In this document: in pieces, positions 24,001-61,415 of the stretch
Position numbering within the stretch: position 1 is the stretch's first letter
Layout: each line of letters opens with the position of its first letter
Assembly: GCA_022601195.1 (NCBI GenBank)
Contig: JAHZIX010000010.1
Coordinates: 124,001-188,000 of the forward strand
DNA: 64,000 nucleotides
Source: Deltaproteobacteria bacterium
GTDB taxonomy: Bacteria; Acidobacteriota; Thermoanaerobaculia; Multivoradales; JAHZIX01
Direction of reading: 5' to 3'
Translations under genes and position numbers: made by a program
The notes under the pieces: generated by a model
What the model saw: the letters and a program-made list of their open reading frames with translations, nothing else
Told to the model about the DNA's origin: nothing
The model's database searches: none

Positions 24001-24007
24001 GATCTCT

Positions 24008-27852: not shown

Positions 27853-27919
27853 GGGTGTGGGCTCGACCTCGAAACAGGGAGGGAAGCACCTCCCGGGAGA
27901 ATCCAATGGGGTCGTGTCA

Positions 27920-29488: not shown

Positions 29489-29489
29489 C

Positions 29490-36119: not shown

Positions 36120-36126
36120 GGGCGGC

Positions 36127-44932: not shown

Positions 44933-45994
44933 CTAGCCCTTCCCCCGCCGCCACTCTTTCGGACCTTCCGAAATGCATTCGTTGCGCTCCAGAATGTCCA
45001 CGGAAGTGGCATCGACCTTGAGGTCGGCGACGCTCCAAAACGGACCCTGGCAAGTTTCGGGAACGTGATAAATCTTCTGTTTACAGCCCCGGGTGGTGAT
45101 CGCTACGGTCGCCTGAGAGGCACCGAGGGTGCCGGTACCGGCATAGCGGTTGACGAGGTAGCGATAGGTGCCGGAAACCCGATGGTAGAGAGTGACGGTT
45201 TCAAAGCCTTCAGAGCGGGTGTGATCGACATCCAGCCTCCCGTAGATCTCGCCGCTATTGGCCTTTCCCTCCTTCTTCCCGAAGTACACATGGCGCTTGT
45301 TGGTAGGCAGGCCGGGGTTTTCCAGCAGGACGTGGGCATCCAGGTCCCGGGGGTTCTCCGCCCAGTCCAGCACCAGGCGGGCTGCCTCCTCAACTTCGAG
45401 GACCGGCGACAGAGGAAGGGAAAACTCCACGTCGCTTCCTTCTTCTAGGGAGATCTCCCGGCTACCGGCGCAAAAGCCCGACGCTTCCGCCTGCAAGGAG
45501 TGTTTCCCCGCAGGCAAGATCAGGGTGAAGGGACCTCCAGTGAGAAACTCTTCGCCCTCCTGAGAGACGAGGCGCACCATAGAAATGGGTTTCTCGGTAC
45601 GCGCATTGACGACGGAAACGAGAACTCTCGACGACATCGAACGGAGGCCAACTTCGACTTGCCGACGCTCCAAGGGAAGCGCTTCGAAGGAGACCGGAGC
45701 AGGGCGAAAGCCCTCAGCCTGCACTTCCAGCTCCACCTGACCACTGGGTAGCCGGGGGAAGACCAGCCGGGCAAGGGAGCCTTCATCGACAGGGGTTCCA
45801 GAGATCACCCTACCGCTGCGCAGGTCGGTTACAGCAACGGAAACGCCCCCAAGGTTTTGGCCGAAAGAAACATCCTTGAGCAGCAGCTCGACCTGGGCCG
45901 GCTTGGGAAGGAAGAAAGGCACAGCTGCCCCAGCACCTGCCAATAGCAGCAAGAAGAAGAGAAGGGTCAGCATGGGCCAGCGACTTCGTTGCAT
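44933..45994 (-). CDS. Membrane-anchored protein with PEGA-like and YfaP/DUF2135-like domains
   Basis: 353 residues: a transmembrane anchor (about 8-30), then two carboxypeptidase-regulatory-like or PEGA-like beta-sandwiches (about 35-125 and 125-200, with LPSGQVELEVQAEGF and LPAGKHSLQAEASGF), and a C-terminal domain (about 205-345) starting RLVLDWAENPRDLDAHV, which resembles the YfaP/DUF2135 pattern of xxWxxxPxDLDxHV. The role is unknown; surface or periplasmic binding is likely. It follows the trypsin-like protease by 9 nt. A hairpin (44918-44935) covers its stop codon. Confidence 0.72.
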   Translation of the reverse strand: MQRSRWPMLTLLFFLLLLAGAGAAVPFFLPKPAQVELLLKDVSFGQNLGGVSVAVTDLRSGRVISGTPVDEGSLARLVFPRLPSGQVELEVQAEGFRPAPVSFEALPLERRQVEVGLRSMSSRVLVSVVNARTEKPISMVRLVSQEGEEFLTGGPFTLILPAGKHSLQAEASGFCAGSREISLEEGSDVEFSLPLSPVLEVEEAARLVLDWAENPRDLDAHVLLENPGLPTNKRHVYFGKKEGKANSGEIYGRLDVDHTRSEGFETVTLYHRVSGTYRYLVNRYAGTGTLGASQATVAITTRGCKQKIYHVPETCQGPFWSVADLKVDATSVDILERNECISEGPKEWRRGKG

Positions 45995-46003: not shown

Positions 46004-46768
46004 CTAAAGGGGTTGACCCACTCGGTCCTGGAAAAACCGACTGAGGGCTTCGCTGGGTACCACCACGCCGAGACCTTCGTGGCCTTGAGTGGCATCCCCC
46101 TTTTGGCTAGCCACCCCTAACACCGTCCAGTCCGAGGTCAGCAGGACGGGTCCACCACTGTTGCCGGGATTGAGATCCATGCCGGAAGTGAAGAAACGGT
46201 TATCTCGGAAGCTCGACAAACTGCCGATACCGGAGACCGCCGCTTCGTCGGAGGTGGATGCGGTTGGCGGGTAGCCGATGGTAATGACTTCCACCATGGC
46301 ACCTGCCCCCTCGAAGAGAGTTGAATCTGCCAACGGCAGCGGGATCAGCTCTAGGTCCGGGAACGACAGGATCGCGAGGTCTAGCTCCGTCTCATCGGAG
46401 TAGCCGGAAATCTGCGCTTGGTGCTTGCGGCCCCGGTAGTCCACCAAGGTGATGGGGCTGCTGCAGGCCTGATGGTCCTTGACCACGTGAGCCGCCGTGG
46501 CGACGAAGCCGGCCTTGATGACAAAAGAGGTGCCGGACCGTCCTCCCTCCCCATCGCAACTCAGTACCTGCACATTGAGAATGCTCTGTTTGAGCTCTTC
46601 CAGATTGGCGTCGGAGAGCTCTGGGGCCACATCAGAAGGACCTTCCCGGATCAGCACATAGTGCCACCGGGTGGCATCCAGCCAGGCGAGGACGGTGGCG
46701 ACCACAGGCAGCAGAAAGAGGAGAACGAGAATCGTCACCATGGTCGCGCGAGATTTTCCTTGACTCAT
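46004..46768 (-). CDS. Membrane-anchored trypsin-like (S1C-type) serine protease
   Basis: 254 residues with an N-terminal signal anchor (about 10-29) and an S1 protease domain with a complete triad: His94 in ATAAHVV, Asp130 in LDLAIL and Ser204 in NPGNSGGP. There is no PDZ domain, unlike DegP/HtrA. GGAGG lies 6 nt upstream of the ATG. It follows the tubulin-like gene after 39 nt. In this cluster it could process the exported vWA, SUMF1 or GrpE-like proteins. Confidence 0.9.
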   Translation of the reverse strand: MSQGKSRATMVTILVLLFLLPVVATVLAWLDATRWHYVLIREGPSDVAPELSDANLEELKQSILNVQVLSCDGEGGRSGTSFVIKAGFVATAAHVVKDHQACSSPITLVDYRGRKHQAQISGYSDETELDLAILSFPDLELIPLPLADSTLFEGAGAMVEVITIGYPPTASTSDEAAVSGIGSLSSFRDNRFFTSGMDLNPGNSGGPVLLTSDWTVLGVASQKGDATQGHEGLGVVVPSEALSRFFQDRVGQPL

Positions 46769-46807: not shown

Positions 46808-49800
46808 CTAGAGCAGGCCATCGCAAACCGGACATTTGGGACCGGCATCCACCATGGAATAGCAGGTCGGGCACTCCACCTGGGCCGGAGCTTCCGGCTC
46901 CTTGGCAGGTTCCTCGGAGGGTTTCTCGGGTGGCTCAGGGGAGGAACTGATGGGAGGCTCGTCAGAGGAAGATGTTGACGAAGCCTCGTCCCCGGCTCGG
47001 GAGCCGGACGGCGGTGGGCTGGGAGGCGCTATCGGCTCCGCCAACTCCCAGGACGAACCGCACTCCGGACAGGGAAACTGGTCCTGGTAGCCAGACCAGG
47101 AGTGGCATTGAGGGCAGTCCAGCTTCGGTTCCGACCGCATCTGGTTGCCGCAGCTCCAGCATTCGTCGAGATCGTCGGGGACCCGCGAGCCACAGATCGA
47201 GCAGGAGAGGCCCTGCGCCACGTGCTGGTTACAGTGCAGGCAGTAGGTGGCCCGAATATCGATCTCCTTGCTGCAGTTGGGGCAGGGGCGCGAGCGGCCC
47301 TGGACCGGTGGCTCAGGAGACGGAGCCGGCGCTTCCGACCAATCCTTGCTGGGGCCTCGCAGGCGCTCCGGGTCGAGAGCCAGAGCATCCAGGTAGGCCC
47401 GTTTCTGGACCACCAGGCTTTGACTCTGCACCTCGAACTTGCCAGCGGCAACCACGTGACCTGCCAAGGCCGTTTGATAGTCCTCGTAGGTCAGCTCCTC
47501 CCCTTGCTTGCCACGGCGCCGGGCGTTCAGGGCGTTTTCCAGCTTGGTCGTTTCCTCCTTGGTGGGAAGCATGGTGCGCACTTGGTCCCGCGCGGTCGCC
47601 AACACGGCATGCTCCGGGGAATAACGCACCACCGTCATGTTGGAGACCCATTTGTCGTCCCGCATGGGCGGGTATACCAGGTGCAGGTAGAAGTCCAGTA
47701 GCAACCAATAGGCCCACAGCAAGCCCGCCGAGCGCAGTAGTTGGATGGACTCCTCTACCGCTTCCAACAGCTGGCGGCGGTCGGTGCGATGCTCTTCCCG
47801 GCCATCCCGGTAAAGAGCATCGATGGCCTGAGCCTCGGTACCCAATTGAATGTCCTCGGCGTCTAGCATGCCCCCACGGACATAGCTGTAGTAGGAAACC
47901 ACTTGCTCTGAGTCTTCTTCCTCGAGGTTTTTCACCTTGAACAAGCCGAGCACTCTGGCGAGGACGAAAGCTCGAATGGAATCCGCCAGCTTGCGAGCTT
48001 CTTCATCGGTCTTGGGCACCAGATCGCCGAACTGGAAGCGATTCTTGTCGAAGTGGAGCTCGTCCTTCTCCTTGTGGTCCGCATAGGCACTGCGCAAACC
48101 ACCAGGGCGAGTGATGGCTTCGGAGTAGAAAGCGGCGACTCCGGCCAGCTCGTTGTAGAACAGGATCGTGCCGCGATTCCCCTTGCCGAGGTTCTGAAAA
48201 CTAGGTGGTGAGTCCGCTGGTGAGCGGACCTCCGAGATCTGGCGTTGGAAATCGGCGAAACGAAGCTCGTTGTCCTTGTCCACTCCAATCAGACAGGGTC
48301 GCTGATCGGCGACCACCGGTCGGGTATCGATGTGGCTCAGACCTGTCTTGGCCGGCGATAGCCACACCTTGGCTAGGTCATAGGCCCGCTTGATCATGCG
48401 CTCCCGCTCGCCATCCCACCGCTTGTCTTGGAGCAGCTCCAGGGCTTCCGGCTGCTTCTCCTGGGTGGCAAAGACCTCCTTGCAGCGCGCCAGGATTCGA
48501 CCTTCCAGTTGGTCCGTGGGGGTCTTCGAGATCTGCGCCATGGCAGCGGTCACGGAGTCGACCTTGAACACCTCTTGGAGCAGCTGATTTCCTACCTGCT
48601 CCAGGGTTCTCCGATGGCGTTCCCCCTCGCCGCACCAACGGCGGTACCAGGTGTCGCAATCGCTCTCCTGGTACAGACTCACGACCAAAGCCGAGGGTTG
48701 CAGCTGAGCGAAATACTCCTGCTTGTCCCGCAGCAGGTGCTGCAACTTGGCGAAGCCGGATAGAAGCTTCCAATAGCGTGCCAGCAGGCCTTCTCCGGTG
48801 GCGTCATCCTTGCCGAGAAATCGGTCGATCTCTTCGCAGATGGCCTTGCCTCGCTTGGCCACCTGCTTTTTGACTCGCGAAAAGTAGTATTGGTAGAGGG
48901 CTCCGGGAGGAGCTCCCTTCCCCGTACCTACCAAAAGCTCGAAGTCCCATTTCAGGTGATGCCCGCGGAACAGCCACTCGCTCTCATGGCGGGCAATGTC
49001 TAACTTCAACTGATCCAGGTCATAGCCATAGGCCTGGGTTTCGTCTCGCCAGACCTCGATCTGGCTGTCGAAATGGCCTTGATAGAGAAAATTCTCGCTG
49101 CGCAGCAACGATTTGAGCTCCCGGAGCAACGACAAGGTGTAGGCCACCCCGTGCTTCGAGTCGTTGGCCGTCTTCTCTGCCTGCTTTTCGATACCCGCCG
49201 TGAGCCGCTCCATGTAGTTCCGCTTGTTGGACTCGATCTGGCGCACTCCCATACCCCACTCGTCCGGATCATCACTATCTTCGTGGGCGAACAGACGGTC
49301 CAGTTCTCCTAGTTCCCGCTCCAGGACGGTGGCTCGCTGGGAGTTCGGCGTGGCTTCCAGTAAATGGCGGATCTTCTGGGCCTTTTCCCACAGGAAACTG
49401 GGAAAGGTCCGCCCTCCCCCTTCTTCGTAGACTTCCAGGGCGTCTTCCACATCGACCCGGTCGATGACACCGCCCCCATCTCGACGCTCATAGCGACCCT
49501 GAACGAAGCGCACGTCTTCCTGGTTGAGAAACCGAGTGAGAAGCCGCTCCAGCGGATCATCCAACAGCGTCTTTTGCCAGAAATCGAGGATCTCCGTCGC
49601 CAAGCGAGCGCCACAGGCGGTGTGGACTCGGTCGGTGGGAAACTCGATGGCGGAATAACCAAAGGAGCCGAAGCGGGTGGGAAAGGTGTCGCCGATGACA
49701 TGCCGCTCCCGGCTCTGTCCGCGGCTACTCAAAGTGCGGTTGAGGTAGTTGTGGGAGTAGACGTCCAAGGCGAAATTGACCAGGTTGACGCGCGTCGCCC

Positions 49801-50767
49801 GCTTCTTGCCGGCGAAGCTACCCTGGGCGTAGTCCTGGAATAGGACTTCGGCGATCATCCGATAGGCGTTCATCTCGCCGCCACCGGAGGGAATGCTCAA
49901 CCCCGCTTCGTTGGCGCCGTCCACCAGGTAGGTGACATCGAAAGGGGGAGGGGCAACGATTTCGCTTCGATTGCCGTCCCAGTTGGCTTCGAAGCCATTG
50001 CCGAAGGAGTGATGGTTGAGCTCCATCAGGGCTGCGTAACCGTTGGCCTGTACCCGCTTGCCACCGGCGTAGCTGGTGAAGAAACTGGGCAAAAGCAGAA
50101 TGCCGACAGTGGAAGCGTTGGCGAAGTACTGCTTGAGCAGAAATCCCATATCCAGAAAGGTGCCACCCCCGGTACCTCCCGCCAAGGAGCAGATGATGAA
50201 GATGTCGACGTTCCCGGGTTCGAAATCGAAACCCAGCTCCGCCGACTGACCGAGGATCCTCGGGTCACTCAGGCTGTTGCGGGCATGTTCCAGGGTTGAG
50301 GTGACTTTCTGAAAATTAGGAGCGTGGTAGAGGCCCAGCCGGCTGGCCAGGCGGATCTGGCCCGCACCGTCCCCCAAATCCCCTAAGTTGGCGATCTTGC
50401 CCGTGTGGGGAAACCACCGCTTGATATGGGGATAGGTACTCAGATGGTTGACGTACTTCCCCGTCCCCCCTTCGATGGTCAGGTCGATGCGTTCCGAAGG
50501 CCGAAAACGTACCGCTTCGAAGAGGGGGTCCGCGGAGGCTGGTAAGTCATATTGCTCTCGGGCGTTGGTAGTGGTGTCCGTGTCCACGTGGACATATCGC
50601 AGGAAGGGAAGGGCGGAGAGAGAGCCGTAGCGCTCTACCACCAGACGCCGCAAGCGAAGCAGTACTTCTTTGCCGGTGCCGCCGAGGCCGATCATCAGAG
50701 TCGGACTGACGGGCTTGTTGTCGTTCTTCTTGGTCGGCGCAGTCTGTAGGAGTTGTTCCAAGCTCAT
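46808..50767 (-). CDS. Large tubulin/FtsZ-superfamily GTPase with C-terminal zinc ribbons
   Basis: A 1319-residue predicted GTPase of the Tubulin_2 type. Motifs: first nucleotide loop MIGLGGTGKEVL (25-36), VHVDTDTTTN (59-68, matching the FtsZ NTD loop), and the tubulin signature CSLAGGTGGGTFLD (193-206). The region to about 550 covers the GTPase fold. About 600 residues of mainly helical sequence follow. The C-terminus has four zinc ribbons (eight CxxC knuckles) from about 1148, with a Pro/Ser/Glu-rich stretch before the last. GAGGAAAC precedes the ATG. It lies between a small membrane protein and a protease in a co-oriented series. A filament-forming, envelope-linked role is inferred from family. 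Confidence 0.88.
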   Translation of the reverse strand: MSLEQLLQTAPTKKNDNKPVSPTLMIGLGGTGKEVLLRLRRLVVERYGSLSALPFLRYVHVDTDTTTNAREQYDLPASADPLFEAVRFRPSERIDLTIEGGTGKYVNHLSTYPHIKRWFPHTGKIANLGDLGDGAGQIRLASRLGLYHAPNFQKVTSTLEHARNSLSDPRILGQSAELGFDFEPGNVDIFIICSLAGGTGGGTFLDMGFLLKQYFANASTVGILLLPSFFTSYAGGKRVQANGYAALMELNHHSFGNGFEANWDGNRSEIVAPPPFDVTYLVDGANEAGLSIPSGGGEMNAYRMIAEVLFQDYAQGSFAGKKRATRVNLVNFALDVYSHNYLNRTLSSRGQSRERHVIGDTFPTRFGSFGYSAIEFPTDRVHTACGARLATEILDFWQKTLLDDPLERLLTRFLNQEDVRFVQGRYERRDGGGVIDRVDVEDALEVYEEGGGRTFPSFLWEKAQKIRHLLEATPNSQRATVLERELGELDRLFAHEDSDDPDEWGMGVRQIESNKRNYMERLTAGIEKQAEKTANDSKHGVAYTLSLLRELKSLLRSENFLYQGHFDSQIEVWRDETQAYGYDLDQLKLDIARHESEWLFRGHHLKWDFELLVGTGKGAPPGALYQYYFSRVKKQVAKRGKAICEEIDRFLGKDDATGEGLLARYWKLLSGFAKLQHLLRDKQEYFAQLQPSALVVSLYQESDCDTWYRRWCGEGERHRRTLEQVGNQLLQEVFKVDSVTAAMAQISKTPTDQLEGRILARCKEVFATQEKQPEALELLQDKRWDGERERMIKRAYDLAKVWLSPAKTGLSHIDTRPVVADQRPCLIGVDKDNELRFADFQRQISEVRSPADSPPSFQNLGKGNRGTILFYNELAGVAAFYSEAITRPGGLRSAYADHKEKDELHFDKNRFQFGDLVPKTDEEARKLADSIRAFVLARVLGLFKVKNLEEEDSEQVVSYYSYVRGGMLDAEDIQLGTEAQAIDALYRDGREEHRTDRRQLLEAVEESIQLLRSAGLLWAYWLLLDFYLHLVYPPMRDDKWVSNMTVVRYSPEHAVLATARDQVRTMLPTKEETTKLENALNARRRGKQGEELTYEDYQTALAGHVVAAGKFEVQSQSLVVQKRAYLDALALDPERLRGPSKDWSEAPAPSPEPPVQGRSRPCPNCSKEIDIRATYCLHCNQHVAQGLSCSICGSRVPDDLDECWSCGNQMRSEPKLDCPQCHSWSGYQDQFPCPECGSSWELAEPIAPPSPPPSGSRAGDEASSTSSSDEPPISSSPEPPEKPSEEPAKEPEAPAQVECPTCYSMVDAGPKCPVCDGLL

Positions 50768-50793: not shown

Positions 50794-51213
50794 TCAGCTA
50801 CGAACGAAACTGATCAGAAACCAGAAGGCAAGCAGGCCCACCAGGGCCAAGGAGGTCCATTGAAACCAAAGCAGGTAGAAGCCGAAGGTGTAAATCGTGT
50901 AGGAGCTGAGGTGAAACCAAGTGCACAGATAGAGCAGCACCCCAGGCCAAAAGATCGCCCGGGCTCCCACCTCCCCGAAATGACGCAGCAGGCTCGGGTA
51001 GAGGCCCCAATAGAAAAAACACCAAACGACCACGCTTCCCAGAATCACCCATAGGGCGCTTAGAAAGGGATTGGCGGTGGTGACCAGGGTGCCTCCGGTG
51101 GCCCCCGCATGGGGAGCCAAAACCGCCAGAAGAAGGGCCAAGCCCGAGAGCTTGGCGGCGAAGCCCCAAGGGATGCTGCCCTCGAGGTCACTGGGTAGCG
51201 AAGTTCTAGTCAT
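50794..51213 (-). CDS. Small integral membrane protein
   Basis: 139 residues, not recognised. A signal-like hydrophobic stretch (about 17-38) is followed by two or three transmembrane helices (about 48-68, 82-104 and 112-136). The ATG at 51213 has GAGGAG 9 nt upstream; longer readings would run antisense-like through the Gly/Arg/Pro-rich tail of the vWA gene. It lies 13 nt from the vWA gene and 26 nt from the tubulin-like gene, so it may anchor the GTPase at the membrane. Confidence 0.75.
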   Translation of the reverse strand: MTRTSLPSDLEGSIPWGFAAKLSGLALLLAVLAPHAGATGGTLVTTANPFLSALWVILGSVVVWCFFYWGLYPSLLRHFGEVGARAIFWPGVLLYLCTWFHLSSYTIYTFGFYLLWFQWTSLALVGLLAFWFLISFVRS

Positions 51214-51226: not shown

Positions 51227-53140
51227 TCAAGAGCCAGGTCGGTTGATGGTCGGTCGACCGGAAGAGCGAGGGGACGAGGGACCTGCCCCGCCCCGCGGCG
51301 ACGATGATGTGGAAGTTGGTCGAGAACCTCGGGGGGCACCAGGGCTTGCCGAGCTCGGTCTCCCTCCGGGACGGCCACTGCCGGGGCGACCGGCGGTAGG
51401 GCGTCCCCCTCCAGGCCGACCTGGCCGGCCCCGAGAGGCACGAGATTCTTGTCCCTCGGCCACGGGGTCTCCGCCCACCTCCTGAATTTCCAAGGAGGTC
51501 GAAACTCCGTCCCGCACAGTGACGTTAAATCGCCCGGCGGTACTGGCCGCCTCCACGCGAACCGCCGCCGAAGCGCGGTTGGGAAGAAAGGTGGCAGCCC
51601 CCAGGAGAGGCCGGCCCAGCGTCCCTAGGCGCTGCCCTTGGTAATCGCAGTAGCGGGATTGAAGCCGCCTCAAGTCGACGAAGTTCTCCTCTCCCGCCAG
51701 ACGGATCTGGTAACGAGCGCGTTTGCCGAAGACAAAGACCAGAAGCCCCAGAAGACTCAGAAGGCCGAGCATCAGCAGCACGAAGAGCAGTTGCCGCCCG
51801 TAGCCGGAGGTCAGCTGAAAGGAGACGGCAACCGGATTCGAAGGAGCCGCTGGGATGTTCAAATGCTCTTCGATCTGAAAAATTTCCGGGGCCGCCTCCG
51901 CACCGAAGATCCCCGCCATCTGGCTGCGGTCGAATTCCGCCTTTAGACCCGTGCCTTCGGCTCGGACCCTCCCGGAGTAGGTGACGGTCAAACCCTTGGA
52001 GGCAGAGGCAAACCAAGCGCCCAGACCTTCGGTCTCCAAGGGAATGGGCTTCTTGGATCGGAGTTGGGCCTTCAGCCCCGTACTTTGCCGGGGGGAAATG
52101 GCAGACAGAGCCTTCGAGGTTCCCTCAAACTCTTCGCTTGGAATGGACTTGAGCCCATAGTCCTTCCCCGACTTTCCAGTGGGACGGAAAGGACTCACGG
52201 GAACGATGCGAATGGAACCGCTGACGATGCGGTGCTGGGTCAAGAGGTTCGTGACCCTCCCGTCCAGGTTCAGTTCCACCCGCTGGCGGTGCCGAAAGAG
52301 AGATTGTTGCCGTTGGGAGATCTGCACCGACAGGGTTTGTACATCCAGGCGCAGAATGTCGTTCTCAAGATTTTTGAGTTTCCAATGAACCGGTTCCTGA
52401 AAAAGGGGGCCACCCATCCCCTGTCGGCGAGCGAGAAGAAAATCCTGTCGAAACTTGGTATCGAAGAAGGTCTCAGACACTCCCTCTACGGCATTTGGAG
52501 AGACCAGGATGCCGTAGACCGCCAGGGTCCCGGAACTACCGCTCACCAGGGAAGCGAAGGGCAACTTGTAGAGGTGAACAGCCCGGTAACGGTCCTCCCC
52601 GTGAACCTCTTCGAAGAAGCGCCGGACCCCTTGGTCGGGTTCCCCCTGGCGGTCCTCGACGATGTTGTCGGTAATCAGCCAGATCAGTCCCTCGAAACGG
52701 CGAGTGGCTGCTCGCAAGCCTTCGGCAAGGAAAGTGTGCCGCCCCGAATGGGGAATGCGGCTGCTCACTCGCTCGAAATCGAACTCTCCAAGAGGGCTCG
52801 GAGGGTGGATGCGCCCAACGTCGGCAAAGCGGAAGGATTCCGAAGAAGTGAGGACCGACATACTGACCTGGTCACCGCCGAAGACGCTCTGCGCAGCGAC
52901 GAAGTCGTCGAGCCAACTGGCCAAAGCAGGGTATTGAAAAAAGTAACGTCCTCCCGCTTCCGCCAAGGTAGGGCCATCGGCACCGGGTGGCTGATACCCC
53001 GGGTACATGCTGCCGGAGTTATCCAGAAGAATCTTGACCTCCAGGCTCTCGCCGGAGCGCAGCTCCGCCGTCAAAGGAAAAGCCATCATCAAAGCGAAGA
53101 CGATGCCAAGGGCGAAGACCGAGAGGGTTCGGGTGTTCAT
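51227..53140 (-). CDS. Membrane vWA protein with intact MIDAS and GRP-rich tail
   Basis: 637 residues. Signal peptide (about 6-25), then a vWA domain (about 32-225) with DNSGSM at 40-45 and ITDN near 155, a beta-rich region (about 250-430), a transmembrane helix (about 442-465), a beta-rich cytoplasmic domain (about 470-550), and a low-complexity tail of Gly/Arg/Pro/Ser (about 565-637). The vWA thus faces the periplasm. It overlaps the zinc-ribbon propeller gene by ATGA. vWA partners are known from predicted tubulin-like membrane-remodelling systems. Confidence 0.85.
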   Translation of the reverse strand: MNTRTLSVFALGIVFALMMAFPLTAELRSGESLEVKILLDNSGSMYPGYQPPGADGPTLAEAGGRYFFQYPALASWLDDFVAAQSVFGGDQVSMSVLTSSESFRFADVGRIHPPSPLGEFDFERVSSRIPHSGRHTFLAEGLRAATRRFEGLIWLITDNIVEDRQGEPDQGVRRFFEEVHGEDRYRAVHLYKLPFASLVSGSSGTLAVYGILVSPNAVEGVSETFFDTKFRQDFLLARRQGMGGPLFQEPVHWKLKNLENDILRLDVQTLSVQISQRQQSLFRHRQRVELNLDGRVTNLLTQHRIVSGSIRIVPVSPFRPTGKSGKDYGLKSIPSEEFEGTSKALSAISPRQSTGLKAQLRSKKPIPLETEGLGAWFASASKGLTVTYSGRVRAEGTGLKAEFDRSQMAGIFGAEAAPEIFQIEEHLNIPAAPSNPVAVSFQLTSGYGRQLLFVLLMLGLLSLLGLLVFVFGKRARYQIRLAGEENFVDLRRLQSRYCDYQGQRLGTLGRPLLGAATFLPNRASAAVRVEAASTAGRFNVTVRDGVSTSLEIQEVGGDPVAEGQESRASRGRPGRPGGGRPTAGRPGSGRPGGRPSSASPGAPRGSRPTSTSSSPRGGAGPSSPRSSGRPTINRPGS

Positions 53141-54411
53141 TTCGCTACCACCTCGTAGAGGGCCACCTTGCCGCGGGCGCTACCGGTAGCCAAATAGGGT
53201 CCAAAGGAGGCAAGGGCAGTGATGCCGTTCTCCTGAGAGTCGACACGGATTTCTCGTTGCTGGTGAGGGCCGTGCCAGTCGTACAACAGCACCCGGCCAT
53301 CCTGGAGACCGACTGCGAAGGCGAATCCTCGGATGATCAAAGGCTGGCCGATCACCCGGTCCATGTGGCCCAACTTCTCCCGCCGGTGCAGGTAGGGGAA
53401 GCGAATCCCATTGGTCTCCACTTGCCCCCATTGGTCGACGCTCCCCAAGGCAAATTTCTTGACGTCGCTATCCAGCCGGATGGCTCCCTTGCCCCATTCC
53501 AGGCGGCACAACTGGTCTTCCTCACCGACCACCGTAAAGAGCTTGTTGCCCATGGCTGCCACCACGGTGTTCTGCATGGGGCCCACCGGCAGATCGTGAA
53601 ACGGAACCGAGCTCACTCGCAGAGGAACGACTCCCGCCTTTAGACAGTGCAGCTGGAGACGGCCCTTGGCCTCGGAGAGAAGATGCACCGTTTGGCTCAG
53701 AAAATCTCCCGCCAGAGCACTGAGTTTGGGCTCGGTGAGCAAGACCCGCGGCGCGGCGGGCCGCGAGCCGGAAACGCCATCGACCACGATCAGGCTCATG
53801 CGACCATCCCGGCGCTTGACCGTCGCGAATAGCCGGTCCCCTAGGGCCAGCAGGGCTTCCGCCGGACGCCCCTCGACCTCTAACTGCCAACGGGGCTCCG
53901 TCTTGGGATCCGGGAGCGTCAATGCGCCTAAGGAAAAGGCCGTCAGCCGCCCTTCTTGCCCAAGAAAGAGGGTGCTCCGGGAAATACAGGGATGGCAGCT
54001 CATGACCGAACCCTGCAAGTTCAGTCGGCGGTGAAAGGCGGTCGTCGGTTCGACGATCTCCACCTGGCCGGCATGTGAAATGGCGATGAGATGGGAATCC
54101 CAAGACAACAAGGAGAAGCAGCCGTCGGCCAAGCTCAGGTCGCCATTGGGCACCGGCAGGAGCCGAGATTCGGGAAGGCGAATCTCGGGCTTTGCGGCGT
54201 TGAGGCCGAGGCGCTTGGGGCCCCCTCGATAGCCGGACCAATGGTCGTCCTCGCCGGGAAAAGGCTGTCCGCAACGCTGGCAAAAATTAGCGAAGGCCCG
54301 CCCCGGGGCGCGGCAAGAGCCGCAACTCTTGACGAAGCGCCGGCACGTGGAACAGGCGGCAATCTCTTTGGCGAGATCCTTGGCCGAGCAATCCGGGTAA
54401 GGACAATCCAT
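53137..54411 (-). CDS. Zinc-ribbon protein with beta-propeller-like domain
   Basis: 424 residues. The N-terminal 50 residues hold four Cys pairs (C3/C8, C20/C23, C30/C33, C44/C47) forming two zinc ribbons. The rest is a WD40/PQQ-like propeller (for example DGRVLLYDWHG, ATGSARGKVALYEV at the end). No signal peptide, so it is cytoplasmic. The ATG overlaps nothing upstream but its stop overlaps the vWA start (ATGA). A truncated copy of its first ~25 codons is found at 56437-56598. Adaptor role inferred from the architecture. Confidence 0.8.
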   Translation of the reverse strand: MDCPYPDCSAKDLAKEIAACSTCRRFVKSCGSCRAPGRAFANFCQRCGQPFPGEDDHWSGYRGGPKRLGLNAAKPEIRLPESRLLPVPNGDLSLADGCFSLLSWDSHLIAISHAGQVEIVEPTTAFHRRLNLQGSVMSCHPCISRSTLFLGQEGRLTAFSLGALTLPDPKTEPRWQLEVEGRPAEALLALGDRLFATVKRRDGRMSLIVVDGVSGSRPAAPRVLLTEPKLSALAGDFLSQTVHLLSEAKGRLQLHCLKAGVVPLRVSSVPFHDLPVGPMQNTVVAAMGNKLFTVVGEEDQLCRLEWGKGAIRLDSDVKKFALGSVDQWGQVETNGIRFPYLHRREKLGHMDRVIGQPLIIRGFAFAVGLQDGRVLLYDWHGPHQQREIRVDSQENGITALASFGPYLATGSARGKVALYEVVAK

Positions 54412-54424: not shown

Positions 54425-56440
54425 CTAATGGCGGTTGACGATCACTTCCGGATGCTGCAGCACCCGGTCCGAGGTGAGGTCCAGGAAGCCCACCCCCACC
54501 ACCCCGAGGATCGTTCCCTCGGGATAGGTTGGGTTCACTGCCGTGGAGCGGCCGATGTGAAGGCTGCTTTCAAAGTTGGATTTCCCGGGGACGATCTCGA
54601 TCACCTGAAGCTGGCCCCAGAGGAGAATCTCCACCACGAGCCCTTTGGCTTCCTCGAGATCCTCGTGACGCCCCTCCAGCTCCAGCTGCCAGTAGTGGCG
54701 GAAGAATTGGTCGGCGAAATCCTGGAAGTCCTCCCGCACCCAATCCTCTAAGCGAAATTCCAGCCGGCGACGGCCTTCGTCAGTGTTGACGAGGCTCAAC
54801 AGGTGATAGGAGAAGTCCCGCAGCTGAAAGAGCTTTCGGCTGGCGGTGTCGGCATCTAGAGGAGCCTCATCCTCCCCCGTCGCCCCGAGAATCTTCTTGA
54901 TCACGGTCAGCTTTGAAAGCAGAGTGCTCGCTTCGAGCACCGGCTGAGCGGCGGCGAGAGCAGCGCTCGAAAGGTCGACAGAACTCGAGAGGCTAGCCGG
55001 CAGAGTGCTCCGGATCTCGTCCACTTTGAGCCGTAGGTCCAGATCGACCCCTTCGAAGCTCTCCTCAAAGATCGTCCCTTGGAGCGAGCCCTGAACCTTG
55101 ACCCACAGCTCTCCCAAGGCCTGCCGCTCGAGCTCTAAAGTGGCAGCGAAAGGACGCGCCTCCAGGTGATCCGGCAGGGAACTGAAATGCTGAAGCTTCT
55201 CGACTCGAGCTGCTAAAACTGCCTGTGACTTCTTCAGTTCGGCGGCGACTAGGCGAAGCTCCCCTTCGATCCTCTGCACCGCTGCCTCCGGAGCCGAACT
55301 GGGAGTCAGGTTCTCTAGCTCGCTGAGACGGTGGCTGAAGTGCTGAAGCGCTTGCTTCCAGGAGCTTTCGGTCTCGCTGGCTCGCCCTTCCAGCATTTCT
55401 CGGAGGGTGGTCAACTCTTCGAGGGCTACCTTTCCGCTAGATAGACCCCTAAGCTGGTGGGCGAGATCTTCAACCCGATGCTGAAGCTTCGAGACTTCGG
55501 CGGACTCATCCTTCGGGGCTGGAAATACATTTCTTTCGGGACTGGAGCTGGCAGACCTTCTCTTTCTCCAACTGACGGCGAAGTGCAAAAACCAAAGGAG
55601 AAGGCTGAGGGCGCCGGCTAGGGCTCCTGCGAGCCTGCCAAAAGTAACTCCTGGGCTGTTGAAACCTGGGCTGGCAACACCTGGGCTGAACTCCTCCCGC
55701 AACTTCTCGGTTTTCATGTCGAGCCGAGCTTCAAGATTTCTATCGACAGAAATGTCTTCTGGCCTTGAGGAATCCTCACCTGGCCCTGGTGATGGTTCGG
55801 GAGGTTTACCCCCTGATCGGCTCCCTCCTACCCCCAACTCATCAGCAGTTTGCGTAGCGATTGCTGCCCTCTCCTGAAGAGTCACTATCAAGGCATCTAG
55901 AGAAGCAAATCTTTCTTCGTTGTTCCGCGGTCTCGGCTGCACGCTGGAGAGGGAGGAAGTGAAGGGAGAAGCTCCTCCACTGGCGTTCTCTCTCTCCAGA
56001 TCCAGACGAGCCTGGTGTGCCAGAGAATGGAACTGGCCAGGTTTCCAGTCGTCCTGGTAGACCTTCTTGAGCTGACCGAGCATCGCCGCGGCCTCACTCA
56101 GTCTGCCTCCCAACTCGGGGCAATTCCTGGCGTCCCGACATGGATCGGCCGAGTTGAGGGCCAGAAAGGTTGCCAGGGAAGAACCCAGTTCCTTAGATGG
56201 CTGATTGAGGGAAGACCATGAAAGTCTCGACAGACAACCTTTTAGATAGATCAGCTGTGCCTGGTTCGGAACCTCACCATTCTCCAGAGTGTTTCTGAAA
56301 GTCTCGATACCGCTACACACCTCTTGGCCCAGGGCCGGAGCCGAGCAAACCACCCCAATGATCAACAAGCTCATGAGAGCCACCACAGAAAAGCGGCGGT
56401 TGGCAGAAGCCAAGGGCATCTCCGGAGAAAGAAAGATCAT
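54425..56440 (-). CDS. Membrane-anchored GrpE-like protein, copy 1
   Basis: 671 residues. Signal or anchor (about 17-38), a periplasmic region with conserved Cys (about 40-265), a transmembrane helix (267-290), a cytoplasmic coiled coil (about 310-425), a helical region, and a C-terminal segment (about 595-671) that follows the GrpE beta-domain pattern: LQVIEIVPG...FESSLHIG, then EGTILGVVGVGF and DRVLQHPEVIVNR, compared with GrpE I-x-P-G-x-x-F-D-P-x-x-H and G-[KR]-x-[IL]-R-x-A-x-V-x-V. It may be a nucleotide-exchange factor for the Hsp70 encoded nearby. ATG at 56440 overlaps the remnant ORF stop (ATGA); a TTG at 56413 or ATG at 56419 are alternatives. Paralogue of the next gene. Confidence 0.75.
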   Translation of the reverse strand: MIFLSPEMPLASANRRFSVVALMSLLIIGVVCSAPALGQEVCSGIETFRNTLENGEVPNQAQLIYLKGCLSRLSWSSLNQPSKELGSSLATFLALNSADPCRDARNCPELGGRLSEAAAMLGQLKKVYQDDWKPGQFHSLAHQARLDLERENASGGASPFTSSLSSVQPRPRNNEERFASLDALIVTLQERAAIATQTADELGVGGSRSGGKPPEPSPGPGEDSSRPEDISVDRNLEARLDMKTEKLREEFSPGVASPGFNSPGVTFGRLAGALAGALSLLLWFLHFAVSWRKRRSASSSPERNVFPAPKDESAEVSKLQHRVEDLAHQLRGLSSGKVALEELTTLREMLEGRASETESSWKQALQHFSHRLSELENLTPSSAPEAAVQRIEGELRLVAAELKKSQAVLAARVEKLQHFSSLPDHLEARPFAATLELERQALGELWVKVQGSLQGTIFEESFEGVDLDLRLKVDEIRSTLPASLSSSVDLSSAALAAAQPVLEASTLLSKLTVIKKILGATGEDEAPLDADTASRKLFQLRDFSYHLLSLVNTDEGRRRLEFRLEDWVREDFQDFADQFFRHYWQLELEGRHEDLEEAKGLVVEILLWGQLQVIEIVPGKSNFESSLHIGRSTAVNPTYPEGTILGVVGVGFLDLTSDRVLQHPEVIVNRH

Positions 56441-56598
56441 CTTCCGACCCCGTCCGATGCACTGCTTCCCCTGCGCGCAAGGGCTTGATGATCCATGGAT
56501 CGCCCACCATGGCTCCTGCCGAAACGCCAGCAAGTAGCGCATCCAGCCATCTCTTCAGCGAGATTCTTGGCCGAGCCATCCGGGTAAGGGCAATCCAT
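56437..56598 (-). pseudogene. Truncated duplicate of the zinc-ribbon propeller gene
   Basis: A 53-codon ORF whose first 26 residues match the start of the zinc-ribbon gene (MDCPYPDGSAKNLAEEMAGC against MDCPYPDCSAKDLAKEIAAC), after which homology stops. Cys8 is changed to Gly. It sits 13 nt after the stop of GrpE-like copy 2, the same spacing as the intact gene after copy 1. Its TGA overlaps the ATG of copy 1. It is a scar of tandem duplication of a (GrpE-like + zinc-ribbon 5' end) unit. Confidence 0.82.
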
Positions 56599-56611
56599 AG
56601 CGACTCCGGCC

Positions 56612-58558
56612 CTAGCGGCGGTTGACGATCACTTCTGGGCGCTGGAGCACCCGATCGGTGGTGAGGTCCCGGAAACCCACCCGCACCACCCCCAAGATCG
56701 CTCCCTCGGGATAGCTTGAGTTGGTTGCCGTGGAACGGCCCATATGAAGACTGCTGTCGAACCTGGTCTTCCCGGGGATGATCTCGATCACCTGAAGTTG
56801 GCCCCAGAGGAGAATTTCCGCCACGAGATCCTTGGCTGCTTCGAGGTTCCCTTGGCGACCTTCCAGTTCCAGTTGCCAGTACTGCCGAAAGAACTGGTCG
56901 GCGAAACCCCGGAAGTCCTCCCGCACCCAATCCGCCAAGCGGAATTGCAACCGGCGGCGGCCCTCGTCCGTGTTGAGCAGGCTCAGCAAGTGAAAGGAGA
57001 AATCGCGCATCTGAAAGAGCTTGCGGCTAGCGGCGGCGCCGTCCACAGGAGTAACCTCTCCCCTTGTCTCTCCAAGAATCTTTTTGATCACCGTAAACTT
57101 CGAGAGCAGAGTGCTCGCTTCCGCCACCGGCTGCGCCGCGACGAGAGCGGCCCTGGAAAGATCTTCAGAACTCTGGAGGCGCTCCGGCAAGAGGCTTCGG
57201 ATCTGGTCCACCTTGGGCCTCCAATCCGAATCGCTCCCTTCCAGGCTCTCCTGAAAGGTCGTCCCCTGGAGCGAACCCTGAACCTTCTCCCACAGCTCTC
57301 TCAAGGCCTGGCGCTCTAGCTCCAAAGTGCCAGCGAGGCGGCGTGCCTCCAGTTGATCTGGCAGGGAACTGAGCTGCTGAAGCTTCTCGACTTGCCCCAG
57401 CAAAGCTGTCTGAGCAGTCTTTTGTTGCGCTGTTGCTAGGCGAAGCTCCTCTTCGACCCTCTGCACCGCTGCCACCGGAGCTGAGCTAGGAGTCTGGTTT
57501 TCGAACTCGTGGAGACGAAGGCTAAGGCTCTGTAGCGCTTGCTGCCAGGAGCTTTCGGCCTCGCTGACCTGTCCTTCCAGCACCTCGCGGAGGGTAGTCA
57601 ACTCTCCTCGGGCTGCCTTCCCGCCTTCTAGATCCCGCTGCTGCTGGGCGAGATCTTCAAGCCTTTTTTTGAGCCCCGAGACCTCGGTGGAGTCATGCCT
57701 GGTTGGCGGAAATTTCGTTTCTCTGGAGGTAGATGGGACCAACCTCTTCTTCTTCTGGATGGCGAATAGAAGGGTCCACAATAGAAGACTGAGAGCTCCG
57801 GCGAGGGCACCGAAGTAGGCTGGAAAGCTGCTACCAGGAACAACCTTTTGGTAAGAATCTCCACCCTCCTCAGAGACAGAGAACTTCTCTTCGAGCTTGG
57901 TGAAACGGAGCTTTAGTTGATCCAGTTCCAATTCGACAGCTCGTTGGTGCGCTTTCCATGCGACCGCATCGAGTCCTCCAATCAACCCATCGAGAGAGAG
58001 GCTCCTGTCGTAGTTACTTAGCCTTCCATTGACAGTCTCACTTGTCGGGATGGTTGCCAGCGTTCCCTGGATGAACGACATCTCTTCAACCGATGTCTTG
58101 CCTGCTAATGCCGTTCGGGCATCAACCGCCACGTCATTGAATTCAGGCAGAGTTTGGTACTCCTCGCTGAGATCTCGAAGCCGCGCCAAAACCCAAGAGA
58201 TTCTTTGAAGACTTTTGCTCTGACCAACGAGCTTCTCGGGATCCGCAATGCTGTCGACCGGTGTTTTGAGATTCCTCTTCAGAAAGTCTGCGATTGCGAC
58301 TCCTGGAGAATTGTTAGTCTCCTTCCATGAAGCCCAATTGCCCGATGGCTTTAGACAATCCACCAGCGCTTCAAGCTGCTGGTTGTTAGGAATCTCATTT
58401 CTCTCCAGAGTGTCCCTAAAACTCCTGATCCCGCTGCACACCTCCTCCCCCAGCGCCAGCGTTGGACAACCCAACGCGATGATCACCAGGCCCACGAGGC
58501 CCCAAGTTGGAAGACGATTGGTGGCGGTCATGGGAATCTCCGGAGAAAGGAACGTCAT
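56612..58558 (-). CDS. Membrane-anchored GrpE-like protein, copy 2
   Basis: 648 residues and the same architecture as copy 1: signal (about 18-37), periplasmic region (about 38-245), transmembrane helix (246-268), coiled coil (about 290-400), helical region and a C-terminal GrpE-like beta segment (about 572-648; VIEIIPGKTRFDSSLHMG and DRVLQRPEVIVNR). The C-terminal two-thirds are highly similar to copy 1; the periplasmic parts differ strongly and are less GC-rich. The ATG at 58558 lies 4 nt after the Hsp70 stop; an ATG at 58531 with GGAGA 5 nt upstream is an alternative. Confidence 0.76.
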   Translation of the reverse strand: MTFLSPEIPMTATNRLPTWGLVGLVIIALGCPTLALGEEVCSGIRSFRDTLERNEIPNNQQLEALVDCLKPSGNWASWKETNNSPGVAIADFLKRNLKTPVDSIADPEKLVGQSKSLQRISWVLARLRDLSEEYQTLPEFNDVAVDARTALAGKTSVEEMSFIQGTLATIPTSETVNGRLSNYDRSLSLDGLIGGLDAVAWKAHQRAVELELDQLKLRFTKLEEKFSVSEEGGDSYQKVVPGSSFPAYFGALAGALSLLLWTLLFAIQKKKRLVPSTSRETKFPPTRHDSTEVSGLKKRLEDLAQQQRDLEGGKAARGELTTLREVLEGQVSEAESSWQQALQSLSLRLHEFENQTPSSAPVAAVQRVEEELRLATAQQKTAQTALLGQVEKLQQLSSLPDQLEARRLAGTLELERQALRELWEKVQGSLQGTTFQESLEGSDSDWRPKVDQIRSLLPERLQSSEDLSRAALVAAQPVAEASTLLSKFTVIKKILGETRGEVTPVDGAAASRKLFQMRDFSFHLLSLLNTDEGRRRLQFRLADWVREDFRGFADQFFRQYWQLELEGRQGNLEAAKDLVAEILLWGQLQVIEIIPGKTRFDSSLHMGRSTATNSSYPEGAILGVVRVGFRDLTTDRVLQRPEVIVNRR

Positions 58559-58562
58559 CTAT

Positions 58563-61415
58563 CTATCCCATCCAATGCAGCTCTTCCGCCGGACGGAGGG
58601 GCTTGATGTCGATGGTTTGGTCGCCCACCATTACGGTGAGGCGGCGATTGGCGTCGAGGGTGAAAAGGACTCGAATCTCTTGGGTCTTGGCCAGGTCGAA
58701 GGAGTAGTCGAGATTGCCCACTTCGTGAATGTCCGGGTTGCCCTTGATGCGAATGGCGGTCCCGAGGTTCAGCAGCAGCTTGCGCTGCAGCCGACCGGAC
58801 AGGTCCAGCTCGCTGGCGGACAGGACACGCTCTCTCTCGAGGGGATAGATCTCGCCACTGGGGATGATCGTCTCGAATTCGGGAGTGCCCAGAGGGTCAA
58901 AGCGAACCCAGCCGTAGGCATGGGGGAGACGGTGCTCTTGTACCAACCGGATCGTGCCACCGGCCCGGTGGCGCAACTGGCCGAACTTCAAGGCGCCCTT
59001 GGCCACGCAGGTTTTGAGCAGATCTTCTTCCAGGAAGATACGCCCCGCCTCCAAAGCCTTTGGAAAGAGCTCTGCAACCTTGTCCTGAACCGCTCCCATG
59101 AGGCTCTGCCGGCCGCCATGGAGCACAAAATCGATATTGTCGGCTTTGATCTGAGCCAGGGAGAGGGCAGAGGTCACCAGGGAAAGAGCTTGATCGAGAG
59201 TCGGCCCCAACAACTCTTCGAGATTCTGGCGGCTGAGCTCCAGCCGAACGCTCTTACCGCCTCGCACATACCTACCCTTTTCCACGTGACCCAAAGCGGA
59301 CGCCGGGAGCTTTTCGGAGACAGGGTCTTCGCGGCTCAAGCGAATCTTCAGCTTCTCGACATACTCTTTCCAATCCCGACGAGCCCGGTAGACCTCTTGC
59401 CAGGTAGCACTGGGCCATTGCTCTGCCTTCCGTCGATCCACCACTTGGCGGTGCGGCAAGGACACCAAGGTGGTGTCGAAAAGAGGCTCTGCCGCCTGAG
59501 CGCTAGCCAAAAGATCAGCCATCAGAACGACGTCCAGGTGATCACCACCCAAAAGGTTGTTGCCCTTGGTAGCGAGGATCTTGAGACCGATGCTGGCATC
59601 TTCCAGGCGGGTAGCCTGAGCCACCGAAATATCCAAAGTGCCACCACCATGGTCGTAGACCAAGAGGTTGAGGCCCCGCTTGCGACCAATCATCCTCTGC
59701 AACTCCCCTTTCAGACTGCGTTGGTCCGAGAGGTAATGGAGAAAGTAGAAAGCGGCGGCTGAAGGTTCGTCGAGGATGATTCCGGCGTTGATCTCGGTGC
59801 CGATCAACTCCCGGAGCCGAGCGGTGACCGCCTCCACCTGATCCCTTTCCGTCGCGATGCCGGCCCGCTCACAGGCTTCTAGAATTCCTTGGATCTGCAA
59901 GTCGAAGAAATTGGCGGGCACCGAAATGATGGCTCGCTGGACGTCATAGTGCACCCTCCGGGTCTCTAGCAAACGCTGCTCAGCGAAAGCCACCAAGTGC
60001 CTCAGGATGTGGGCGGCGATCTCCTCCGGACGGTAGCTCTTGCCGAGGATCTCTAAGGCCTCGTCATATCCCATGAGGCGCTTGATGGAAGGCACCATTC
60101 TTTCCGGGAAGGTGCGGCTCGCCTCCAGGGCGTCGTGGCCGATGCGCGTGGTGCCGTCCGGATGAAAGTACAGCAGGCTGGGAATGAGTCCCGACGGACC
60201 CTCACCATTGGGACCCGGGACCTCGACGAGCTCCGGGCTCAGATCTGATCCCAACACGGAGACGACGGAGTTGGTGGTGCCGAAATCGATGCCGACGTAG
60301 TCCGGGTAGGGAGTCAGCTCGTGGAGCAGAAGCTCCACCGGTAGACGTACATTGTCGAGATCTTCTTGCGCGGTAACGATTTCCACGAAGCCCTGGTGAG
60401 TGCCAGGTTCCAAGCCCTGAGGCTCACAACCGAGGGTGAAGGAGAGCAGGCTTTTATCCGACACCTGAGTGCCCTCTATGGCCGAGAGAGTCCGAGGCAG
60501 GATGGGAGGGGAGAGCACCTTGAGCCACTTGGCGGGGGCTCTCACTGCCTTCACTTCGACGTCGATGGAGCCTCGGTTGCGGATCTCCACGGGAATCGCA
60601 TCCACTCGCTTGGCAGAGCCTTCGAATCGCACTTGGCGCGGCGCTGGCTCCAGGCGATAGCGATACAAATTCGCTTGGGCGGACACTTGGAAGATCTGCT
60701 TGTCAGCCAACTGAAGGAGAAAACCAGCATCAGTGCCGTCTTCCTCGGATTCGATGGAGGTGTCCCAAAAGACCGGAATCTCGACGCTCTGCCCGGACTC
60801 CACGGAGATGGGAAGCCCCACTTTTCCAACCCCCAGTTGGCGGGTCCCCTTGGTGTCGATCGCCGTAACCCGCAGGGCGAGCCCACCTTCGTTGGCCAGA
60901 TGAATCACCTGGTCGCCCCTTTTACCTTCGGAGAGCTCTCCGAAGCTCACTGCAGCGGCGACCGGTCGAGGGCCGGAACGCACCGTTACTTCGACGGTAC
61001 GGCGAAGATTCCCTTCCTGATTGAGAATCAGATGGTAGAGAGTATGCAGCTGCCGAAAATCTTTGGGCAACTTATCCGGGTCAAGGCGAAGGGGGACATT
61101 CGCTTTCTGGCCCCCTTTGATCACTAGAGAGCTCGATTTTCCGTGGCTGAGCCAGGCGCTCTCGGGGTCTTGGCGGATTTCGACATGGAGATCCTGGGGG
61201 TCCTGATTCCACAGCACCAAAGTCTGTTCCTGACGGGAAGGAAGGGAGGAAACCAGGATCACCGACTCCGGCTGAATGGCCAACTGCAAAGCCAGCCGAC
61301 CACAGCCGGCGCAGTAGTTGTCCCCGGCTGCCACTGGCCACTCTCCGCAGTGAGAGCAGAATTGCCTACGCTGCGGTGTCGTGCCAACGCTCTTTGGGGC
61401 TGCTCTTGTCGTCAT
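58563..61415 (-). CDS. Zinc ribbon - Ig-like - Hsp70 fusion protein
   Basis: A 950-residue cytoplasmic Hsp70-family ATPase. Residues 20-38 form a zinc ribbon (CSHCG...CAGCG); 45-365 are Ig-like beta-sandwiches (MSP/ASH-like, for example LVLWNQDPQDLHVEI and IPVEIRNRGSIDVEV). The actin-like ATPase starts at about 372: phosphate-1 GIDFGTTNS (375-383), ILDEPSAAA (547-555), phosphate-2 YDHGGGTLDIS (587-597), adenosine loop VLHGGRQS (764-771). The C-terminal part is short, with no normal DnaK lid or substrate domain. It heads the minus-strand series, followed within 4 nt by GrpE-like copy 2. The start ATG at 61415 has only a weak ribosome site. Confidence 0.9.
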   Translation of the reverse strand: MTTRAAPKSVGTTPQRRQFCSHCGEWPVAAGDNYCAGCGRLALQLAIQPESVILVSSLPSRQEQTLVLWNQDPQDLHVEIRQDPESAWLSHGKSSSLVIKGGQKANVPLRLDPDKLPKDFRQLHTLYHLILNQEGNLRRTVEVTVRSGPRPVAAAVSFGELSEGKRGDQVIHLANEGGLALRVTAIDTKGTRQLGVGKVGLPISVESGQSVEIPVFWDTSIESEEDGTDAGFLLQLADKQIFQVSAQANLYRYRLEPAPRQVRFEGSAKRVDAIPVEIRNRGSIDVEVKAVRAPAKWLKVLSPPILPRTLSAIEGTQVSDKSLLSFTLGCEPQGLEPGTHQGFVEIVTAQEDLDNVRLPVELLLHELTPYPDYVGIDFGTTNSVVSVLGSDLSPELVEVPGPNGEGPSGLIPSLLYFHPDGTTRIGHDALEASRTFPERMVPSIKRLMGYDEALEILGKSYRPEEIAAHILRHLVAFAEQRLLETRRVHYDVQRAIISVPANFFDLQIQGILEACERAGIATERDQVEAVTARLRELIGTEINAGIILDEPSAAAFYFLHYLSDQRSLKGELQRMIGRKRGLNLLVYDHGGGTLDISVAQATRLEDASIGLKILATKGNNLLGGDHLDVVLMADLLASAQAAEPLFDTTLVSLPHRQVVDRRKAEQWPSATWQEVYRARRDWKEYVEKLKIRLSREDPVSEKLPASALGHVEKGRYVRGGKSVRLELSRQNLEELLGPTLDQALSLVTSALSLAQIKADNIDFVLHGGRQSLMGAVQDKVAELFPKALEAGRIFLEEDLLKTCVAKGALKFGQLRHRAGGTIRLVQEHRLPHAYGWVRFDPLGTPEFETIIPSGEIYPLERERVLSASELDLSGRLQRKLLLNLGTAIRIKGNPDIHEVGNLDYSFDLAKTQEIRVLFTLDANRRLTVMVGDQTIDIKPLRPAEELHWMG

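Follow-up and report, generated by a model that had tools for sequence, protein, structure and literature searches.

Putative membrane-tethered exchange factors of the GrpE family paired with a lid-less Hsp70 in a bacterial tubulin operon

The locus described here lies in a 64,000-nucleotide stretch of DNA from a Deltaproteobacteria bacterium (assembly GCA_022601195.1, contig JAHZIX010000010.1, positions 124,001 to 188,000; hereafter the window). In this window two paralogous GrpE-like genes, copy A (P0001) and copy B (P0002), stand between the gene of a non-canonical Hsp70 (P0003) and a group of genes that includes one for a Tubulin_2 protein (P0006; Table 1). The Hsp70 gene is upstream, with its frame ending at 58563 and the P0002 gene starting at 58558, leaving a gap of 4 nt. 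A hydropathy scan of P0001 and P0002 revealed two hydrophobic segments per protein, one N-terminal and signal-like and the other an internal helix, and the chain order in both is signal-like segment, extracytoplasmic part, single membrane helix, coiled coil and C-terminal GrpE module. The 4-nt spacing as well as the signal and single membrane helix of each protein had been claimed in an earlier note on this DNA, and both claims stood. The internal helix is directly followed by a Lys/Arg run in both copies (KKKR in P0002, RKRR in P0001), and by the positive-inside rule such a run marks the cytoplasmic side of a membrane helix, so that the C-terminus of both proteins would be cytoplasmic.

The two genes appear to have arisen by duplication. 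The open frame of P0001 extends over 54425-56542 and encodes 705 residues compared with 648 for P0002, but its true start is probably residue 35, because this residue aligns with the start of P0002. The 34 residues ahead of it come from reading through a remnant of the start of the downstream zinc-ribbon gene (about 56513-56609), and the presence of this remnant between the copies therefore points to a tandem duplication of the GrpE-like gene together with the start of the next gene. The GrpE modules of the two copies are 78% identical with a non-synonymous divergence (dN) of 0.12 and a synonymous divergence (dS) of 0.51, values that indicate purifying selection on the module between the paralogues. 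A promoter and terminator scan gave no signal above shuffle level.

Table 1. Features of the operon, given as positions in the window.
Feature	Position	Strand	Basis or remark
Non-canonical Hsp70 (P0003, 950 residues)	58563..61415	minus	Pfam HSP70 E 2e-32
GrpE-like copy B (P0002, 648 residues)	56612..58558	minus	membrane-anchored GrpE-like protein
Membrane helix, copy B (residues 249-267), then KKKR	57758..57814	minus	hydropathy
GrpE four-helix-bundle and beta module, copy B (residues 546-648)	56615..56923	minus	Pfam GrpE to residues 587-646; model superposition
Putative tandem-duplication scar between the GrpE-like genes	56513..56609	minus	matches the start of 53137-54411 plus the bases upstream of it (79%, 97 nt)
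GrpE-like copy A (P0001)	54425..56440	minus	frame open from 56542, probable start 56440
Membrane helix, copy A (residues 305-323), then WRKRR	55574..55630	minus	hydropathy
GrpE module, copy A	54428..54736	minus	Pfam GrpE to residues 644-703
Zinc-ribbon protein with beta-propeller-like part (P0004)	53137..54411	minus	weak Pfam, under cut-off: DZR E 0.006, WD40-type E 0.01
VWA-like membrane protein (P0005): signal, DNSGSM motif, one membrane helix	51227..53140	minus	hydropathy
Small multi-helix membrane protein (start inferred)	50794..51213	minus	conserved in operon
Tubulin_2 protein with C-terminal zinc ribbons (P0006, 1319 residues)	46808..50767	minus	Pfam Tubulin_2 E 3.2e-63; four-genome alignment
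Membrane-anchored trypsin-like protease	46004..46768	minus	Pfam Trypsin_2 E 5.6e-18; one N-terminal membrane helix
Membrane-anchored PEGA/CarboxypepD_reg-domain protein	44933..45994	minus	Pfam PEGA E 2.1e-5, CarboxypepD_reg E 1.1e-7

The C-terminal modules belong to the GrpE family by several lines of evidence. The motifs that the earlier note had quoted are found in both copies as VIEI(V/I)PGK, F(D/E)SSLH, EG(T/A)ILGVV and DRVLQ(H/R)PEVIVNR. In the window copies the match to the Pfam GrpE family (PF01025) is limited to the final 60 residues, with E-values of 2.7e-4 and 0.007. The curated cut-off of this family, 25.8 bits, is exceeded by relatives from Desulfonema magnum (39.3 and 28.8 bits) and from genomes G018 (27.5) and G498 (27.2), while G090 is borderline (25.6, or 25.9 with its neighbours) and G002 (20.5), G499 (18.2) and one Desulfonema module (20.8) lie below it. 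Aligning ten members of the family with 20 ordinary GrpEs in hhalign gave 98.5% (E 1.7e-15, 101 columns), compared with a maximum of 1.4% for 100 column-shuffled decoy sets. A profile built from five family members (A3) and run over whole genomes matched 8 of 148 genomes in the class, four of them carrying the system, and 43 of 396 in a sample of the phylum. The non-system matches that came with loci all match PF01025 (32/32) and are ordinary grpE genes; this check covers those 32, and 11 further matches in the phylum sample came without loci. Adding the genome's own GrpE and both window domains brings the PF01025 matches to 35 of 35. In a tree the ten family domains form a single clade among GrpE sequences, with support of 96/92.

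The predicted fold is in accordance with this assignment. An AlphaFold2 model of P0002 residues 405-648 has a mean predicted local distance difference test (pLDDT) of 77.8 and a predicted template modelling score of 0.71, and pLDDT reaches about 81-93 in the last 100 residues. A Foldseek search with 236 matches in the PDB placed GrpE structures in all nine best positions (E 5.7e-4 to 0.063), and the seven best entries of VIA-align were likewise all GrpE (Z 8.7 to 6.7). Model residues 136-244 superpose on 1dkg_A with a Z of 8.2 and a root-mean-square deviation (rmsd) of 4.0 over 97 residues. The remaining six GrpE superpositions have an rmsd of 12 to 14.5, probably from a different angle of the long helix in the model. 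The GrpE module is preceded by a long helical stretch and by an extra helical domain. The earlier note had identified the C-terminus as a GrpE module and had named a missing GrpE profile match combined with a non-GrpE fold as what would speak against it; Pfam and profile comparisons, predicted fold and tree all gave GrpE. Our results thus support both window proteins as membrane-tethered members of the GrpE family.

We next consider the distribution of the pair. A genome-contig scan with the window Hsp70 alone gave no matches; with the Tubulin_2 alignment as the query, loci were retrieved. In 84,980 species genomes, five of the 80 loci kept hold full-length Tubulin_2 relatives, namely those of two Acidobacteria (gp7 AA8, G090, and SZUA-115, G018), two Candidatus Aminicenantes (G498 and G499) and Desulfonema magnum (G497). 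The other 75 match the query in part, mostly over its N-terminal domain, and were taken as other systems outside the system count. Together with G000, G002, G524 and G658 the system is present in nine genomes. It is rare, with 4 of 148 genomes in the class and 2 of 396 in the phylum sample carrying it. Among 291 genomes from the class to which Desulfonema belongs, six were counted at E<=1e-8, and three of these (Desulfonema, G524 and G658) have the membrane-anchored form. All ten full-length GrpE-like members have a membrane helix, and in nine of them the N-terminal hydrophobic segment is over threshold. The earlier note had held that known GrpE lacks such a helix, and indeed we found one in none of 33 ordinary GrpEs and in none of eight other accessory GrpE-like proteins. 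An Hsp70 gene of the P0003 family lies at most two genes upstream of the GrpE-like gene in all eight genomes with upstream DNA, which include acidobacterial, Aminicenantes and Desulfobacterota genomes. An ordinary GrpE is retained in all seven system genomes searched, those other than G524 and G658 (141-184 bits).

Several candidates were rejected as members. In G063 (L017/L025) the match is confined to the coiled-coil region of the query, and the locus showed no operon. The GrpE-like proteins of G693, G603 and G511 match the profile weakly (37-44 bits) and were kept outside the family count; those of G693 and G603 are without a membrane helix, and the G511 frame, being partial, does not figure among the eight accessory proteins above.

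Other arrangements of GrpE-like genes were seen in the same organisms. In Desulfonema magnum a protein of 1194 residues (L155:6842-10426) carries two tandem GrpE modules behind a single membrane helix and adjoins a protein of 889 residues with a single module; one possibility is that the two-module chain is a covalent GrpE dimer. Further accessory GrpE-like genes, whose products have no membrane helix, occur at L157, L158, L159 and L160 in Desulfonema magnum and at L161 in Aminicenantes. Four of these five adjoin a non-housekeeping Hsp70 gene, and at L160 there is only a weak Hsp70-like frame, further off. It thus seems that a single species may run several separate Hsp70-GrpE pairs.

The earlier note had called the neighbouring Hsp70 non-canonical, and the layout of P0003 agrees with this. 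The protein starts with a zinc ribbon (residues 20-39; Pfam E 0.002, under cut-off) whose four Cys are invariant in six genomes, continues with an N-terminal beta-sandwich region that has a weak choice-of-anchor-D match, and ends with the ATPase domain (about 373-805) and a short C-terminal domain resembling SBDbeta. The model of the ATPase domain superposes on DnaK with a Z of 33 and an rmsd of 2.9 over 371 residues. Residues D377, G379, K445, E550, D588, G590 and T593 as well as the GGD motif, which we take to have catalytic roles, are invariant in the six genomes, in accordance with an actin-like ATPase domain whose phosphate and adenosine motifs are intact. The C-terminus compares with DnaK SBDbeta 388-497 at an hhalign probability of 67% (E 5e-5); outside the ATPase domain the model is of low quality, and in this part it is mostly below a pLDDT of 50. 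The chain stops directly after the SBDbeta-like part and is therefore without a helical lid.

Two full DnaK genes are also encoded in the window genome and ordinary DnaK uses the GrpE fold, so that the module might recruit the housekeeping DnaK to the membrane, leaving the neighbouring Hsp70 without a part as partner. We consider this highly improbable since Hsp70 genes of the same family lie close by in all eight genomes, since the housekeeping GrpE gene adjoins dnaK elsewhere and since accessory Hsp70-GrpE pairs recur.

An extra conserved protein of about 480-545 residues is encoded between the Hsp70 and the GrpE-like gene in G090, G498, Desulfonema and G524 (in the last as a match to profile A11) and is absent from the window. 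The frames are L065:1117-2565, L155:10416-12050, L156:6320-7891 and L174:6385-7977. The two copies scanned gave no convincing Pfam family. This interposed protein is possibly a degenerate partner related to Hsp70 or actin.

Taken together our results point to P0001 and P0002 as, probably, GrpE-family exchange factors (a putative activity) that are fixed in the inner membrane and dedicated to the neighbouring Hsp70. Several observations weigh against this reading. The window copies score 21.2 and 17.3 bits and are thus under the PF01025 cut-off. PDB sequence searches with P0002, with its C-terminal part and with profiles A3 and A6 returned no GrpE, many of their matches being designed repeat or helical proteins. 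The AlphaFold2 model is less sure in its residues 1-140 (pLDDT 46-83), and the five models range from 60 to 78. In G658 the Hsp70 frame is short, with 300 residues only, and no J-domain protein was found among the operon proteins scanned with Pfam. The residues of the module add to these points. We compared the ten columns that are invariant in the 20 ordinary GrpEs, as read in the hhalign alignment. Six of them (Asp, Leu, Phe, Gly, Val and Val) are kept in at least 9 of the 10 members and D165 in 7; G137 is changed in all ten, A171 in eight (kept in two), and beta-domain R201 is replaced by Gln in eight, with Arg in the other two. We assume that Arg201 is equivalent to the DnaK-contacting Arg in E. 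coli GrpE, and given these three changes the contact with Hsp70 may be different or lost.

These changes raise the possibility that the module is an anchor, with its exchange activity lost or weakened, which would hold the Hsp70, or the Hsp70 in its ADP state, at the membrane. The replacement of R201, invariant in 20/20 ordinary GrpEs, and the alteration of two more invariant positions argue in this direction, as do the invariants of the family's own, His605 and Asn646, with Arg608 and Arg626 nearly so. The core positions Asp554, Leu583, Phe600, Gly628 and Val643 are nevertheless kept and the module evolves slowly, as one would expect if the interface is active and has co-adapted with an unusual Hsp70. 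The residue changes would fit a co-adapted interface and a weakened one alike; we consider a pure anchor rather unlikely and retain the exchange factor as the preferred reading.

The earlier note went further and proposed that these proteins relay a periplasmic signal to a cytoplasmic Hsp70. This part of its proposal was not borne out. We compared eight proteins in 28 pairs by blastp (E<1e-3) and found that the last 245 residues match in 28/28 pairs, the extracytoplasmic part in only four. This does not support a conserved sensor, and the pattern would fit a variable receptor as well as a plain spacer or anchor. The extracytoplasmic part of G090 consists of 107 residues of low complexity (70% Pro, Thr, Ser, Ala and Gly). 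Between copies A and B this part is 33% identical (dN 0.80, dS saturated). In a signal relay an extracytoplasmic ligand would alter the coiled coil and thereby gate the exchange factor. The signal, extracytoplasmic segment, single helix and coiled coil placed in series would suit such a device, and the two copies diverge most outside the cytoplasm, as receptors with different inputs would (33% compared with 78% identity in the GrpE module). We nonetheless judge the relay to be improbable, as the extracytoplasmic part is hardly retained between pairs and can be reduced to a low-complexity linker in G090 with the rest of the protein kept. A role of the membrane-fixed exchange factor as anchor or locator requires no sensor.

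The genes that follow the pair are in part conserved at the other loci. A gene of the P0004 type occupies the same position in L020, L024, L065, L155, L156 and L174, and frames of 140-153 residues in L071, L069 and L068 look similar, by eye, to the product of 50794-51213. The VWA label of P0005 comes from its DNSGSM motif, the protein having no Pfam match at E<=1. The Pfam matches of P0006 are to tubulin families only. By hydropathy and Pfam the Tubulin_2, Hsp70 and zinc-ribbon proteins are without membrane helices, and the VWA-like, trypsin-like and PEGA proteins are at the membrane. Ten window proteins scanned with Pfam at E<=1, a set that did not include the 50794-51213 product, gave no GTPase or GAP1 family. 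Only the trypsin-like and STAND proteins were recognised by PADLOC, which left the Hsp70, the two GrpE-like proteins, the VWA-like protein, the Tubulin_2 protein and the zinc-ribbon protein without a match.

Beyond the operon, the adjoining gene on the same strand (40695-43139) encodes a TPR protein that also has an FGE-sulfatase domain (Pfam E 2.8e-31) and a membrane helix. Two adjacent look-alike proteins of 464 and 484 residues, with Pro-rich middles by eye, are encoded on the plus strand at 37853-40691. Further downstream on the operon strand (31593-36155 and 36127-37584) a gene for a NACHT/STAND ATPase (Pfam NACHT E 1e-12, PADLOC STAND_TPR E 1e-42) overlaps the end of an LCAT-like hydrolase gene and may be another conflict module. 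Frames rich in CxxCH, resembling multihaem cytochromes, surround a cyclic-nucleotide-binding/ferredoxin-like frame at 21464-31469 and, judged by eye, probably form an electron-transfer cluster.

How could the pair work? The N-terminal signal would take the chain into the membrane, which it would cross once, leaving the variable part outside and the coiled coil, the helical domain and the GrpE module on the cytoplasmic side. There the GrpE module, which may dimerise through its coil, would force the ATPase domain of the operon Hsp70 open and lead to the release of ADP at the membrane only. The VWA-like, trypsin-like and PEGA proteins would share that membrane site. Hsp70 cycling would thereby be limited to the building or dismantling of a membrane-bound complex around the Tubulin_2 protein, its putative client. 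In a wider form, which we put forward as a tentative speculation, several phyla would possess a second, membrane-tethered Hsp70 cycle, in which a GrpE dimer fixed in the inner membrane, formed by the paralogue pair in the window and by the tandem modules of one chain in Desulfonema, acts as a spatial or gated switch. It would let an Hsp70 that has no lid, together with an Hsp70-like partner, build or dismantle a Tubulin_2 polymer under the control of envelope proteins.

Compared with GrpE (PF01025), which serves Hsp70 as its nucleotide exchange factor in bacteria and mitochondria, the proteins share the C-terminal four-helix and beta module, the long coil before it and a gene position by an Hsp70; they differ in the signal, the extracytoplasmic segment, the membrane helix, the extra helical domain and the changed G137, A171 and R201, as well as in the two modules per chain in Desulfonema. 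Dedicated Hsp70-GrpE pairs are already in print (PMC7159879). In the text available, Kaur et al. 2020 describe GAP1-N2 GTPase-centric conflict systems whose themes include tubulin with a membrane vWA protein (about 52%) and HSP70 with GrpE (about 14%), a subset of the latter having a second HSP70 that lacks the peptide-binding domain; the themes are called non-overlapping. The interposed protein could correspond to what that account (PMC7159879) calls 'HSP70 sans peptide-binding domain'. The dedicated HSP70 with its own GrpE, the sister theme of tubulin and vWA, the zinc ribbons and the membrane setting are alike as far as that text goes. By contrast, the tubulin, the VWA-like protein (a motif-based label), the Hsp70 and the GrpE are here united in one operon, and no GTPase or GAP1 is among the ten proteins scanned. 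The section text of PMC7159879, as distinct from its figure and source data, makes no mention of a membrane helix on GrpE.

The FtsZl1 membrane-remodelling system, in which a tubulin-like family is linked with VWA proteins (Makarova and Koonin 2010, PMC2875224), likewise combines a tubulin-like protein, a VWA protein and envelope proteins in the text available, but Hsp70 and GrpE have 0 occurrences in that text. A parallel in function only is yeast Snl1, given in the accessible part of Kumar et al. 2014 (PMC3962485) as the only known membrane-associated exchange factor. Like our candidates it is an exchange factor of a cytosolic Hsp70 held in the membrane by an N-terminal helix; unlike them it has the BAG fold and belongs to the eukaryotic ER. 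A 2015 review assigns to eubacterial genomes a single Hsp70 exchange factor, GrpE, in its available text (PMC4753570), the terms 'transmembrane' and 'membrane-anchored' do not occur in that of a 2025 review of GrpE-like factors (PMC12987570), and GrpE does not occur in that of PMC11090510. In the open-licence PMC literature we found no description of a membrane-anchored GrpE or of a tubulin operon with Hsp70. Relative to the published Hsp70-GrpE pairs, what would be new is a GrpE anchored in the membrane and the union of the tubulin and Hsp70-GrpE themes in one operon. If our reading were correct, bacteria too would control where Hsp70 cycles by means of a tethered exchange factor, and the unexplained tubulin-VWA systems would gain a testable entry, in which the Hsp70-GrpE pair is the ATP-driven part with a client that can be searched for.

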